A stretch of DNA of 64,000 nt from Sinosporangium siamense (lineage in GTDB: Bacteria; Actinomycetota; Actinomycetes; Streptosporangiales; Streptosporangiaceae). The notes beneath the pieces are model-generated. The model searched no databases, had not been told where the DNA came from, and worked only from the letters and a program-made list of their open reading frames with translations. Positions 43,059 through 49,247 of this stretch are shown in pieces. Numbering within the stretch: the stretch's first letter is position 1; each line of letters opens with the position of its first letter. The position numbers were made by a program, and so were the translations under genes. The stretch is from NCBI RefSeq assembly GCF_016863435.1, contig NZ_BOOW01000029.1, positions 1-64,000 of the forward strand, read 5' to 3'.

Positions 43059-43136
43059 GGCGATTCCTTCCTTGATCGGACAAGAGGAAGCTTACCGTGA
43101 AGTCCATATTTTGAGAGATATCGTCTTGAATATTGA

Positions 43137-43152
43137 GACAATCAAGATTGTC
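43137..43152. promoter_or_regulatory. Perfect palindrome GACAATC-AA-GATTGTC
   Basis: A 7-2-7 inverted repeat lies in the AT-rich gap between the methyltransferase and the gene at 43178, 26 nt before the latter's ATG. No regulator gene is adjacent, so the binding protein is unknown. Confidence 0.5.
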
Positions 43153-43177
43153 GGAGACCTCGTCTAAGGTCCCGATC

Positions 43178-44425
43178 ATGAAGACCGCCTGGCAGAAGGT
43201 CCGCGCCGCGATCGAGGACGCCGACACCGCCGCCCTCGTCGAACTGGCCACCGGCTGGGACGTGGACGAACGCCGGCAAATAGCCCGTGAGCTGCCCGGT
43301 TACCTGCCGGCCGCACGTGCCTTCCACCAACGCCGGCACTCGGGCGCCGCGCTCGACGGCTGGATCACCCCAATGCGCGTCGCCGGCGCGGGCTCCATCG
43401 CGGACGCGGCGGCGGTGGCGGCCTGGGTGAACCGGCGTGAGTTCGCCGACGGCGCCGTCTTCCGCTGGGATGGCGGCGAGGCCGACGACACCGAGTGGGT
43501 GGTGCGCGCGCTGGCCACCCGGCCGGTGGAGTGGCGGCAGGACCTCGCCGTACGGCTTGCGCTTCGGCTGCGCTCACTCCGCCCCGAGGCCGATCGGCGG
43601 GTGAACCTCGCGCTGACGATGCTCCGCGAATCCGGCGCCCAGCCGCCTGAGCACGCCCCGCTCACCGCGGCTTGGCTTGAGGCGACAGGCCCCGCCGACC
43701 TGGCCGGCGATCCGCTGCTGGACACGATGGTGCGCGCCCTGTTCGAGAGCGAAGGCGTGGGCAGGCTCCTTCAGGACGACCTGATGTGGCCGAAGGCGTT
43801 GTGCGCCCTGGCCGGTGCGGGGCGCCTGAGCCGCGAGGGGCTGCTCGCCGGTTGCCGGAGCCGGTTCCTCGCCGGAGGCGTAGCCGTCGACCAGCGTTTC
43901 TTCGTCCGCCTGCACGACATGCTCGACCCGACCCCCGAGGAGACCACCCCTTATGTCCGCGATTACCTGGCGCTGCTTCCCTCCGCCACACCGTACGTCG
44001 CGGGCCTCGCCCTCAAAGCCGTCCGAGGCGCGGGCACACTGCCGCCGGCGCAGGCCGGGGAAGCGGTCGAGGCATTGCTCTATCGCCCCGAGGGCAGGTT
44101 TGTGCGGGCGGGGCTCACCTGGCTTGACCGGCTGCTGAAGCACACCGACGACGGGTTGGACGCATGGGCGCCGGCGTTGTCGATCGCCCTGACGAACGGT
44201 TCCGGGCAGGTGCGCGACCGTGCGGCGCGGCTGGCGGCCGCATACGCGCCGAGGTTCAGTGCGCTTGGTGCCGCCGCGATGCGGGAGGCGCTGGAGTCGT
44301 CCTCTGAGGCGCCCTTTGTCTCTCCGCGGTTGCCGGACGTGCCGCCAATGGGTGGCCGGATGGGCGCAGGCGCGGGGCGAACCGCCGGTGGTCACGGAGG
44401 TCGCGGAGCGGAAGCGGGTCAATGA
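43178..44425 (+). pseudogene. Truncated large repeat protein (resembles DUF6493), frameshifted C-terminus
   Basis: The first 380 residues are coherent: KTAWQKVRAAIEDADTAALV, then ELPGYLPAARAFHQRR, and HEAT-like helical repeats such as LDRLLKHTDDGLDAWAPALS and RDRAARLAAAYAPRF. After LPDVPP the frame turns into a Gly/Arg/Ala-rich tail (GGRMGAGAGR), while the neighbouring frame continues sensibly as WAQARGEPPVVTEVAE and RLHDRLT to 44468. From memory, related proteins are about twice as long. I infer a deletion plus frameshift near 44360 that removed the C-terminal half. Family name is tentative. Confidence 0.55.
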
Positions 44426-44460
44426 GCTCGTATTGCACGCTCGGCGGCTGCATGACCGGC

Positions 44461-44721
44461 TTACGTGAGCGGGGGGTGCGCGGTGCCGAAGGGGCTGTCG
44501 ATGACATATCGCCAGCCCCTGTCCTGGCCCCGGCGGGCGACGTCGGTGGCGGTGCCCTCGATGTGCACGTGCTCGCCGTCCGGGGCCGTGCCGTCGATAG
44601 TCCAGTCGACGACGAGCAGGGCGAGGTCGCCCGCCACATAAGTATGCCGGGGGCGGACGTCGATCAGCAGGCCGAGGCTCAGGAACTCCGCGTTGGCCCG
44701 GCCGATGTCCTCCCCGCTCAC
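44461..44721 (-). pseudogene. SnoaL-like (nuclear transport factor 2 fold) protein, N-terminally truncated
   Basis: The 86-residue frame carries the second half of a SnoaL/YybH-type domain: SGEDIGRANAEFLSLG, VAGDLALLVVDWTIDG, IEGTATDVARRGQDRGWRYV, then IDSPFGTA. Complete members have about 130 residues. Just upstream, another frame on the same strand ends AVFVPHP, which is the sequence expected directly before, so a one-base frameshift near 44735 separates the two; what precedes that is not SnoaL-like. Hence truncated and shifted. Confidence 0.6.
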
Positions 44722-44858
44722 GGGAGCGCCGGGTGTGGGACGAACACCGCACGGGGGCGTTCACTCGGACCGGTCCCGCAGGCGCTGTGGGACTGGGGCG
44801 CCGACTCCGCGTGAGGGCGGTCGCGGGAGGGGCGTGATCGCGCCATACACTCCCACGC

Positions 44859-45422
44859 ATGGCTGACAACGAACTGGGTGTGTTTCCGCGTGCCCAAAAA
44901 GGGGCGGTCACACCCGGGGAGGTGCGGCCCACGGTGCGCGCACTGCTCGAACGGCTCGACCCGACGCCTGCCGTGGTGGTGGATCGGGTGGGCGATGTGC
45001 TGGCGCACACGCGCGGTTATGCGCGGCTGGCGGGGCCTCTGGGGCTGCTGGAGGGGCGTCCGCCCAATCTGTCGCGTTATGTGTTCACCGACAAGCGGGC
45101 CCGCCGGGCCTTTCCCGAGTGGGGACGGCTCGCCGACCACCGGGCCAAAGACCTGCGGGCCGCGGTGGCGCTCGGCGACCCGAGGGCGGTGGCCCTCGCC
45201 GAGGAGCTGTCCTCGAACGCCGGGGTCGGGTTCAGCGGCCGTTACCAGGCGTGGCCCGCCATGCCCGCCCGCACCGGTGTGGAGCGGTGGGCGCACCCGG
45301 AGGCGGGGGAGTTGCTCCTGGCCTACGAGAGCCTCGATCTGGCCGACGGGGACGAGCGGCGGCTGATCGTCTATCTGCCCGCCGACGACGCCACCTCGGC
45401 CGCGCTCGACCGGCTGACGTGA
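44859..45422 (+). CDS. MmyB-like regulator lacking its HTH domain (in-frame internal deletion)
   Basis: A 187-residue protein. Residues about 24-185 are the MmyB-like ligand-binding domain: VRALLERLDPTPAVVVDRVG, NLSRYVFTDKRARRAFPEW and ERWAHPEAGELLLAYESLDL. Family members begin with a 10-residue leader and then an XRE HTH of about 85 residues. Here the leader MADNELGVF is present but is followed within 12 residues by the ligand domain, so the whole DNA-binding domain is gone while the frame is preserved. The product cannot bind DNA by itself; it might titrate ligand or a partner, or be a relic. Confidence 0.75.
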   Translation: MADNELGVFPRAQKGAVTPGEVRPTVRALLERLDPTPAVVVDRVGDVLAHTRGYARLAGPLGLLEGRPPNLSRYVFTDKRARRAFPEWGRLADHRAKDLRAAVALGDPRAVALAEELSSNAGVGFSGRYQAWPAMPARTGVERWAHPEAGELLLAYESLDLADGDERRLIVYLPADDATSAALDRLT

Positions 45423-46126: not shown

Positions 46127-47353
46127 CTATCGCGCCAGTCGCGCCGCACGGGCCGAGAGGTGGCGACGTTCGGGGGAACTGGTGGTACGGCGCGCCGCCT
46201 CGCGGTAAGACTCGGCGGCCGCCGCGCGGTCGCCGAGAAGTTCGAGAAGGTGAGCTCGGGTCGCGGCGAGGCGGTGGTGGCGGGCCATACGCTTGTCGGA
46301 CTCCAGCCCGGCGAGGAGGGCCAGACCGGCGGCGGGGCCGTACACCATGGCGGTGGCGACCGCCCGGTTGAGAGTGACGACGGGGCCCGGAGCGACACGT
46401 TCCAGCAGCTCGTAGAAGACGAGGATCTGCGGCCAGTCCGTGGCGTCCACATCGTCCGCCTCGTCGTGGATCGCGGCGATGGCCGCCTGGAGCTGATAGG
46501 GACCGACCTGTCCGCGCGGCAACGCCTGCCCGACCAGCTCGACGCCTTCGGCGATGAGCGCCCGGTCCCAGAGCGCGCGATCCTGCTCGGCCAGCGGCAC
46601 GAGGTCGCCGCGGGAGGTGGTGCGGGCGGGCCTGCGTGCGTCGGTGAGCAGCATGAGGGCGAGCAGCCCGGTCACCTCGGCTTCGTCCGGCAGCAGGCGG
46701 TGCAGGAGCCGGGTGAGCCGGATGGCCTCGGCCGACAACGCGGGCGCGGTCAGATCGGCGCCGACGGTGGCGGTGTAGCCCTCGTTGAAGATGAGATAGA
46801 GCACGTGCGTGACCGCCTCGACGTCGGTCACGCCGGGCTCGCCGAACGCGACGCCCTTGACGGTCTGCTTGGCCCGGCTGATGCGCTGCGCCATGGTCGC
46901 CTCCGGCACGAGGAAGGCGGCGGCGATCTGCGCGGTGGTGAGACCGCCGACGGCGCGTAACGTCAGGGCGATGCGGCTGCCGATCGCCAGAGCGGGATGA
47001 CAGCACAGGAACAGCAGCGCCAGCGAGTCGTCCCTGTCGGCCTGCGGGTCGGCGTCGGCGGGCCGGCTGAGCAGCTCCGACTGGGGTGTGGCGAACATGA
47101 TGCGGTCCTCGCGGTCGCGCCGCGCCCGCTCACTGCGCACCTGGTCGATCAGTTTGCGGTTGGCGACCGTCAGCAACCAGCCGCGTGGGTTGCCGGGCAC
47201 GCCGTCGACCGCCCACTGGAGGGCGGCGGCGAGCAGCGCCTCCTGCACGGCGTCCTCGCTCGCGTCGAACTGCCCGTGCCTGCGCACAAGCGCACCGAGG
47301 ACCTGCGGCGCGAGATCGCGCAGCAGATCCTCGATCCGGGGGCCTGAACTCAC
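46127..47353 (-). CDS. ECF42-type RNA polymerase sigma factor with C-terminal TPR-like domain
   Basis: A 408-residue sigma factor. Region 2 spans DASEDAVQEALLAAAL to RGWLLTVANRKLIDQ, region 4 is GGLTTAQIAAAFLVPEATMA followed by QRISRAKQT, and the C-terminal 230 residues form the DUF6596/TPR-like extension (YLIFNEGYTATVG, LTRLLHRLLPDE, AVATAMVYGPAAGLAL). This is the ECF42 layout, in which the extension replaces an anti-sigma factor. GTG 47353 overlaps the stop of the DGPF gene by 4 nt, which is the typical partner. Confidence 0.93.
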   Translation of the reverse strand: MSSGPRIEDLLRDLAPQVLGALVRRHGQFDASEDAVQEALLAAALQWAVDGVPGNPRGWLLTVANRKLIDQVRSERARRDREDRIMFATPQSELLSRPADADPQADRDDSLALLFLCCHPALAIGSRIALTLRAVGGLTTAQIAAAFLVPEATMAQRISRAKQTVKGVAFGEPGVTDVEAVTHVLYLIFNEGYTATVGADLTAPALSAEAIRLTRLLHRLLPDEAEVTGLLALMLLTDARRPARTTSRGDLVPLAEQDRALWDRALIAEGVELVGQALPRGQVGPYQLQAAIAAIHDEADDVDATDWPQILVFYELLERVAPGPVVTLNRAVATAMVYGPAAGLALLAGLESDKRMARHHRLAATRAHLLELLGDRAAAAESYREAARRTTSSPERRHLSARAARLAR

Positions 47354-47712
47354 AGGTCCGCTGCCGCCTCGTGCAGGATCGGCCACACCTCGATGGGGTC
47401 GACGTCCGCGGACGGCATCTCCGCCGCGATCTCCAACGCCCGCTCCTCGCTCTCGACGTCGAGCAGATAGAAGCTGGCCATGTATTCCTTGGTCTCCAGG
47501 TAGGGACCGTCGGTCACCGCCGGGGCGCCGCCCTCACGCCGCACGAGCCGGGCCGCGACCACGTCGGCCAGACCGTAGGCGCCCAGCAGCTCGCCCGTCT
47601 CGCGGTACTTGGTGTTGAAGGCGTCCTGGCGGGCGATGAAGACGGGCCATTCCTCGGCGGGGATGGAGTTCCACTTCTCCTGGTTGCCGTAGATCATCAG
47701 CAGATATTTCAT
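47350..47712 (-). CDS. YCII-related DGPF-domain protein
   Basis: A 120-residue ferredoxin-like protein with the namesake motif DGPYLETKE at about residue 72 and YLLMIYGNQEKW at the start. DGPF proteins are regularly encoded with ECF42 sigma factors, though their biochemical role is unclear. ATG 47712 is preceded by GGAAGGG. It is the first gene of the two-gene operon and is divergent from the secreted beta-propeller gene. Confidence 0.9.
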   Translation of the reverse strand: MKYLLMIYGNQEKWNSIPAEEWPVFIARQDAFNTKYRETGELLGAYGLADVVAARLVRREGGAPAVTDGPYLETKEYMASFYLLDVESEERALEIAAEMPSADVDPIEVWPILHEAAADL

Positions 47713-47963
47713 GAGAGACCCTTCCTGTGCTTGCTTGTCACCCCTTGGTCGGAGCGGGAGTCGGGTCCTCGACATCCGAAAGGACAAATTCTGCCCGAAG
47801 TACGGCAGAGCCAAAACGACAGCGGCCGGGCGGTAGACGCGGCCCCGGACATCCAAATACCGAAGCCGAGGCGCCCATCCACCTGGGCACCGTATGCAAT
47901 CGATCCCACACTTTGTGTGCATAAAGGGTTGATCATCAAGCGGATCACGGAGAGACTTCAGGC

Positions 47964-49247
47964 ATGCTCCGGAGATCAAAAGCCCTGCTAGTGGCCCTTT
48001 TAACCGTGTTTGTCCTAGGTGCTGCGGATCCCCACGGGGAACCGTACGAAGTGTGGCTTGTCGACCAGTCCGACACCAACGGGCTCACCTACGGCGGCAC
48101 CGTACACATCTACCGCGGCGCCCGAGCCGTCCCAACCCAGACCATCGACCTCGGCGCGGCCACCTCCACCCTCTGCCAGGCCCGGACAGGCCGAAACCCG
48201 GTCCGGCCGCACATGATCGTCTTCAACCAGAAGAACACCCACGCGGCGATCTCCTTCGTGGCCAGCGGGCACGTCGCCCTGATCGACACCCGCACCCGGC
48301 AGCCCGTCGGCTGCGTGTCCACCGAGGTGGGCGCGGGCGGCGCCCGGCAGGCCCACGCCATCTGGCCGACGGAGGACGACCGCTACCTGCTCGTCGCCAA
48401 CCAGAACGGCAAGAAGATCGAACGCGTCCGCACCGAATACGCCACGAACACCTTCACCCCCGAACCCGCCGCGACCGTCGACCTGGCCGGCTGCACGACC
48501 CCCAACGGCGCCCCCTGCCAGAGCGTCGACTTGCGGCCGGACAACGCGCCCATCTGCCCCTACATCGGCAGCGACAACGGCCCGCTGTTCGTGAGCCTGC
48601 GCGGCGGCGGCATGCTGGTGCTGAACTGGCGGACCACACCGATGGCGATCGTCGCGGAATACGACAAGCACAACATCCCCAATAACGGCTGCGGATTCGC
48701 CGAGGCGAAGGGGAAGATCTTCGGCGACGGGGGCGGAGGCACGGCCAACCACCTGGACGGCTTCAGCGTCTTCCGGCTGCCGATGACCGGCTACTCCGCC
48801 ACGAACCCGCCCAACACGCCTGCCGTAGAGCGCCTGTTCGACGACCACTCGCCCAACCGGGACGCCCACGGCACGGCGGTGACACGGGGAGAGCGCTACG
48901 TGTGGGTCGCCGACCGGGCGTCCAACGTCGCCGAGGTCTTCGACGCCCGCTCGGGAGCACGGGTCAACACGATCAACCTGGTCTCGCCGTACTCCGCGGA
49001 TCCCACGGTCGACCTGCTCGACATTTCGCCCGACGGGAAGTGGATCTTCGCTTCGACCCGCGGACCCAACCCGCTGTCGGGCGACCCGCACGCCTCCCAC
49101 GGCACCGACCCGGGCATGCTGGTCATCCGGGTCACCGATGGCGGCCGCTCGGGTGAGGTGCGAGGGCTGGCCCGCATCACCAACATCGACGCGGGCGGCG
49201 TGCAACGAGCCGACGGCCACGGCATCCGGCTGCGCACGATCCCGTAG
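47964..49247 (+). CDS. Secreted beta-propeller protein (YncE/lactonase-like repeats)
   Basis: A 427-residue protein. The N-terminus is a signal peptide (ALLVALLTVFVLGAA). The rest has repeats of beta-propeller blades: VASGHVALIDTRTRQPVGCV, YLLVANQNGKKIERV, RYVWVADRASNVAEVFDARS, and LLDISPDGKWIFASTRGP. Six or more Cys suggest disulfides outside the cell. Blades of this kind occur in YncE and in quinoprotein-like domains; no enzymatic residue set is clear. A strong terminator follows. Confidence 0.85.
   Translation: MLRRSKALLVALLTVFVLGAADPHGEPYEVWLVDQSDTNGLTYGGTVHIYRGARAVPTQTIDLGAATSTLCQARTGRNPVRPHMIVFNQKNTHAAISFVASGHVALIDTRTRQPVGCVSTEVGAGGARQAHAIWPTEDDRYLLVANQNGKKIERVRTEYATNTFTPEPAATVDLAGCTTPNGAPCQSVDLRPDNAPICPYIGSDNGPLFVSLRGGGMLVLNWRTTPMAIVAEYDKHNIPNNGCGFAEAKGKIFGDGGGGTANHLDGFSVFRLPMTGYSATNPPNTPAVERLFDDHSPNRDAHGTAVTRGERYVWVADRASNVAEVFDARSGARVNTINLVSPYSADPTVDLLDISPDGKWIFASTRGPNPLSGDPHASHGTDPGMLVIRVTDGGRSGEVRGLARITNIDAGGVQRADGHGIRLRTIP

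Follow-up and report, generated by a model that had tools for sequence, protein, structure and literature searches.

Regulators of the MmyB-like (MLTR) family combine an N-terminal XRE-type helix-turn-helix (HTH) domain with a C-terminal ligand-binding domain (PF17765) and bind DNA as dimers. A usual, if not strictly defining, feature of their loci is a neighboring and often divergent gene that encodes an oxidoreductase or is related to antibiotics. MmyB is said to recognize pseudo-palindromic B-boxes, and the natural ligand of the family member MltR (3pxp) has been reported to be unknown (PMC3406030). A related domain occurs in SLCG_7083 of Streptomyces lincolnensis, a 223–amino acid PAS protein that is distantly homologous to pfam17765 (residues 30 to 131 on profile positions 7 to 107); SLCG_7083-like proteins are described as spread across Streptomyces (PMC10717218). 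Section 5 of that article mentions no HTH for SLCG_7083 and the length of the protein leaves little room for one, from which we infer that it has none. Among the titles and abstract openings listed for MmyB and MLTR, none reports a deletion derivative of the kind described below.

We analyzed an open reading frame (ORF) in a 64,000-nt stretch of DNA, hereafter the window, from the draft genome (8.86 Mb, 84 contigs) of Sinosporangium siamense (contig NZ_BOOW01000029.1, positions 1 to 64,000). An earlier note had described the ORF as an MmyB regulator that has lost its HTH domain by a precise in-frame event. The coordinates of all features are collected in Table 1.

Table 1. Features of the locus, with positions in the window.
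Feature	Position	Strand	Basis
Remnant of uncharacterized large-protein gene	43133..44468	+	Frame comparison with L160
5′-truncated DUF4440 (SnoaL-like) fragment, profile 57–106 of 107 only	44461..44721	-	Pfam, frames of relatives
Site matching the palindrome position by L011 spacing (by eye), unrecognizable	44818..44834	.	
TACACT, −10-like box, 7 nt before ATG, as in relatives	44846..44851	+	Comparison with relatives
ORF with MLTR ligand-binding domain and family leader, without HTH	44859..45422	+	ORF call, Pfam, 31-member alignment
Leader remnant, codons 1–20, homologous to N-terminal leader of full-length relatives	44859..44918	+	Alignment
Deletion junction, codons 20–23 (G-E-V-R), ~84 codons missing compared to closest homologues	44916..44927	+	
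MLTR_LBD (PF17765), profile 1–168/168, predicted to adopt a PAS-like fold; top PDB hit 3pxp	44922..45416	+	Pfam, Foldseek

Results

An MLTR ligand-binding domain without the HTH domain

The ORF starts with ATG and stays open over 187 codons at the coordinates first given for it. The sole Pfam match of its product is MLTR_LBD, which spans residues 22 to 186 and the full profile (E = 1.2e-37), placing the protein in the MmyB-like family. No N-terminal XRE-type HTH was found in it either by Pfam or in a 31-member alignment of the window protein with 30 relatives chosen among the fetched loci described below. In this alignment MLTR_LBD was present in 31/31 proteins and HTH_31 in 30/31, the window protein matching MLTR_LBD alone. 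The AlphaFold model of the protein is of moderate confidence (mean pLDDT 66.9, with residues 142 to 166 mostly below 50), and the leader, at a very low pLDDT of 28 to 41, is predicted to be disordered. The best Foldseek match of the model was 3pxp (E = 9.5e-7; TM 0.54 by query length), which was also the best match in a PDB profile search with the ligand domain; a PDB search with the single sequence of the window protein gave no match.

The same genome contains a full-length paralogue (L002, contig C43) that is 55% identical in the ligand domain. A scan of genome contigs revealed only two distant relatives (31 to 32% identity). One other genome of the genus was searched and gave three matches, 28 to 32% identical. 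A family-wide search of 341 genomes, in most of which at most nine candidates per genome were scored, produced matches in 317, and among the matches listed the best outside the window genome were 60 to 68% identical. No relative nearer than 68% was present among the matches listed when 345 genomes of the order were searched.

From a larger number of matches, 138 loci (L002 to L139) were fetched for the protein. An HTH lies upstream of the ligand domain, in frame and with no intervening stop, in 135 of them. In L110 and L139 the HTH stretch is gone and the leader is joined out of frame to the linker or the ligand domain (frames were read by eye), with a TAG stop in addition in L139, while L138 lacks the HTH together with the beginning of the ligand domain. 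All three look broken and are apparently pseudogenes, and no second intact short form was found among the 138 fetched loci. Judging from these frames, HTH-removing deletions recur in the subfamily, the in-frame case in the window being one of four. Loss of an essential domain compared to homologues, a criterion by which pseudogenes are recognized, is likewise seen in the window gene. The three HTH-less loci were left out of the conservation and promoter counts below, which are based on the 135 HTH-bearing relatives; because some of these are distant, the closest 40 or 45 were also analyzed apart.

The earlier note had named one outcome that would overturn its claim, namely that all homologues of this subfamily lack the HTH and start identically. 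For the relatives examined, such an ancestrally HTH-less subfamily has practically no probability and was rejected: not only do 135 of the 138 carry the domain in frame, but the leader of the window protein is homologous to the N terminus of full-length relatives. The claimed loss of the HTH is thus borne out by Pfam, the fetched relatives, and the alignment.

In a phylogenetic tree, the window gene has a long terminal branch (0.34, the 24th longest of 136; median 0.13). We name no sister since its nearest grouping has a support of only 0.585. The locus L015 (genome G167), which shares a neighbor with the window gene, was examined for wider synteny and not accepted as the orthologous locus: of 54 coding-like frames of the window, only the two adjacent genes are matched there within the 38 kb fetched.

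Edges of the deletion

Relatives broadly read M..NELGAFLR.RREAVTPA.VGLP..RRRTPGLRR...(HTH)...VRPTVRALLDRLEP, compared to MADNELGVFPRAQKGAVTPG-EVRPTVRALLERLDP in the window. Alignment with full-length homologues, which the earlier note had proposed as a check, places the junction at codons 20 to 22, where VTPG is followed by EVRP, with the preceding leader aligning to the family leader. Among the 11 closest relatives listed with this distance, the two valines that flank the edges are 84 residues apart in 8; the distance is 83 to 87 residues in 91/125 relatives (the pattern missed the edges of the other 10 of the 135, which are not part of the edge counts). The proposed loss of about 85 residues is therefore accurate.

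The short direct repeats that the earlier note had proposed to look for were not clearly present at the edges. The candidate repeat, GAGGTG, occurs at the left edge in 8/125 relatives and at the right edge in 8/125 as well, but at both in 1/125 only, and no clear short-repeat cause of the deletion was found. The longest identical in-register run between the edges is 2 to 4 bases in 110/125 relatives; it is 4 bases or fewer in 113/125 and 7 at the most. These runs also bear on whether an intact gene was collapsed by the assembler. The genome is a draft in 84 contigs, which speaks for such an artefact, but the bases shared by the edges are too few to mislead an assembler, the leader has acquired substitutions of its own at conserved positions, and a neighboring gene carries a separate deletion. 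We consider an assembly artefact very improbable.

Upstream region and neighboring genes

A divergent reductase gene lies within ~1.2 kb upstream at 10 of the 14 loci that were read, these 10 having been picked on seeing a reductase-like frame. By Pfam they encode aldo/keto reductases (seven), short-chain dehydrogenases/reductases (SDR; two), and an FMN reductase (one); no reductase was identified at L015, L016, L036, and L039. This is in line with the SDR/MDR neighbors reported for the MLTR family (PMC3406030). No divergent reductase gene is found in the 1.7 kb upstream of the window gene, which is filled by two gene remnants, the upstream neighbor being the truncated DUF4440 fragment.

The DUF4440 fragment lacks the N-terminal half of its profile: frames in 14 relatives extend at least 47 residues further upstream, compared to 13 in the window. 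The fragment has a GTG at the break, and the rest of it is well conserved. The other remnant belongs to an uncharacterized gene for a large protein (43133–44425 as an open gene). L160 has an open frame of 981 residues, of which residues 71 to 521 correspond to the N-terminal part of the remnant (43148–44347) and residues 930 to 967, in another frame, to its C-terminal end (44352–44465), so that ~400 codons between them are missing in an internal, out-of-frame deletion. The best nine matches outside the window genome end at query residues 386 to 389, within open frames of 856 to 1285 residues. Single genomes of the bacterial family contain as many as ten matches to the family of this large protein. 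On the other side of the ORF, at 46127–47979(−), a sigma-70–type (ECF-like) factor with DUF6596 stands beside a YCII-domain protein, an ordinary pairing.

The 17-bp palindrome TGGCCC-N5-GGGCCA, with no more than 2/12 mismatches, was found within 80 bp upstream of 106/135 relatives (for instance L013, L016, and, before the start at 2307 on the minus strand, the paralogue L002). In 76 of the 106 it starts 51 to 53 nt before the start codon, and 1.8% of shuffles, which kept base content only, reach such a match. A TAnnnT box ends 4 to 8 nt before the start in 121/135 relatives, which suggests a leaderless-type promoter and leaderless transcripts. The two elements, both of which are retained by L002, are probably the operator and the leaderless promoter of this MLTR subfamily. 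Neither TGGCC nor GGGCCA occurs in the main text of PMC12565409.

The −10-like box of the window gene is in place, but the best match to the palindrome in the 80 bp upstream has 4/12 mismatches, the commonest value among shuffles. The absence of the palindrome alone proves little since 29/135 intact relatives also have no recognizable copy.

Sequence change in the leader and the ligand domain

The leader, which the earlier note had called normal, is homologous to the family leader as noted, but its residues P10, Q13, K14, and G15 each occur in 0/135 homologues. When columns conserved at ≥90% among the 40 closest relatives were considered, the window protein was off at 3/10 leader columns, where no homologue exceeded two, versus 2/60 domain columns, where the homologue mean was 1.95 (Fisher P = 0.019). 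The contrast was similar at ≥95% (3/8 versus 2/47, P = 0.018; the homologue mean for the domain was 0.82, and two changes were reached by 7/40). With all 135 homologues, the counts were 2/5 versus 0/20 at ≥95% (P = 0.033) and 2/6 versus 1/38 at ≥90% (P = 0.045), while at ≥80% P rose to 0.06 to 0.08 in both homologue sets. The GC content at third codon positions is 0.58 in the leader (homologue mean 0.89; as low in 1/135) and 0.88 in the last 160 codons (homologue mean 0.93; as low in 21/135).

In the ligand domain, pN/pS was 0.52, compared to 0.50 to 0.64 in 45 relatives, 41 of which were at or above the window value. Amino acid changes unique to the window protein averaged 16.2 versus 15.3 in sisters, and third-position changes 38.8 versus 24.0. 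Judged by the changes at conserved columns, the GC content of the leader, and the pN/pS and unique changes of the domain, the leader looks relaxed, while the ligand domain does not. Relative to the ≥90% columns of the 135 homologues, the ligand domain deviates at one residue only, K97, which aligns with Gln178 of MltR, one turn before Arg181 (counted by eye on the profile alignment). In MltR, the HTH domain is contacted by two ligand-domain residues, Arg181 and Leu185 (PMC3406030). The change at K97, though a single residue, would fit the release of an HTH-facing surface.

The two upstream remnants served as a control for this preservation. The DUF4440 fragment was changed at 2/44 conserved columns (0 to 7 in 14 relatives), and its pN/pS, 0.50, is at the high end of the 0.26 to 0.52 of the relatives, with a higher value in 1/14. 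In the broken large-protein gene, the N-terminal part was changed at 13/104 conserved columns (0 to 13 in nine relatives), with a pN/pS of 0.60 (relatives 0.57 to 0.76). Fragments unable to make a whole protein are thus still rather well preserved, somewhat less than the ligand domain. The preservation of the ligand domain could likewise be a residue of recent breakage, and it is weak evidence of selection because the truncated DUF4440 neighbor is nearly as well preserved.

The earlier note had taken the open frame to suggest either a very recent event or a selected function. We find the open frame itself to be weak evidence of function, since only 38/1683 single substitutions in the ORF sequence create a stop and, when substitutions are placed at random, the first stop appears after a median of 31. 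A very recent event is not favored either, the leader having drifted; a selected function may apply, given that the ligand domain shows no acceleration.

The protein might be kept without its HTH as a ligand sink, as a partner that draws an intact MLTR paralogue (L002, for example) into inactive heterodimers, or as an HTH-less regulator resembling SLCG_7083, a reading that we hold to be possible, if tentative. It would account for the combination of a relaxed leader with a conserved domain (3/10 versus 2/60 columns) and unraised pN/pS, for the very low third-position GC content of the leader, for the retained −10 box and ATG, and for a change at K97, close to the HTH-contacting residue. The same genome also has an intact paralogue whose palindrome is intact too, and SLCG_7083, a distant homologue, has a knock-out phenotype (PMC10717218). 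However, the short form is found in one genome, the contrast between leader and domain weakens at ≥80% columns, the neighboring leader changes at positions 13 to 15 may stem from a single event, and the few changes in the DUF4440 fragment demonstrate that conservation is no proof of use. A dominant-negative role is harder to envisage because, in MltR, the HTH domain and the linker contribute to the dimer interface as well, and the full-length protein is described as a monomer in solution (PMC3406030). It is unlikely, in our estimate, that one in-frame deletion yielded a free ligand domain that still senses, titrating ligand or poisoning the intact paralogue, while selection was lifted from the operator and the DNA-facing surfaces and the pocket was kept, which would have turned a regulator into an anti-regulator.

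Discussion

Our results suggest that the ORF is a disabled MLTR autoregulator in a decaying locus, a reading to which we give a probability of roughly 0.57; it is most likely a regulator in decay and not a novel type of protein. The in-frame deletion would have taken DNA binding and hence autoregulation and control of the target reductase gene, and the locus would have been deprived of both the operator-like palindrome and that target gene. Transcription of the ORF may continue from the retained −10 box; its product would then be a stand-alone ligand domain that no longer regulates anything and is heading for loss. By chance, a deletion stays in frame in one case out of three, and the frame may have been kept in this way here, not necessarily by selection.

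Decay is supported by the state of the relatives, nearly all of which have the HTH (135/138) while the other three look broken, and by the two adjacent genes, which are deletion remnants. The absence of the reductase gene and palindrome upstream and a leader that is predicted to be disordered and has residues unseen in homologues point the same way. Against decay, the ligand domain has no visible sign of it, being changed at 0/20 columns (≥95%, 135 homologues) and 2/60 columns (≥90%, 40 homologues); its pN/pS does not exceed that of 41/45 relatives, and its unique amino acid changes are near those of the sisters despite more third-position changes. The gene has also kept its start codon and −10 box. 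The DUF4440 control is not fully equal to the domain, its pN/pS being exceeded by 1/14 relatives. A recognizable palindrome is lacking in 29/135 intact relatives as well, and no reductase was identified at 4/14 loci.

If the gene is decaying, the case is an ordinary one, four apparently disrupted genes being present among the 139 examined (the window gene and 3/138), and it illustrates cleanly how little an open frame says about function when the genome is rich in GC. Should selection be keeping the domain, the MmyB family would have given rise in one step to a free-standing sensor or anti-regulator. Even so, a retained stand-alone domain would be no new category because SLCG_7083 has already been published. 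A free ligand domain would then be a handy protein with which to look for ligands, the natural ligand of MltR being reported as unknown.

With MltR (3pxp) and the MLTR family, the window protein has in common the whole ligand-binding domain and a leader homologous to the N termini of the full-length proteins; it differs from them in lacking the HTH, a divergent oxidoreductase gene on its upstream side, and a recognizable operator-like palindrome. SLCG_7083, by its description, stands alone as the window protein does, but its like are spread across Streptomyces, whereas the window form is a deletion product found in one genome.
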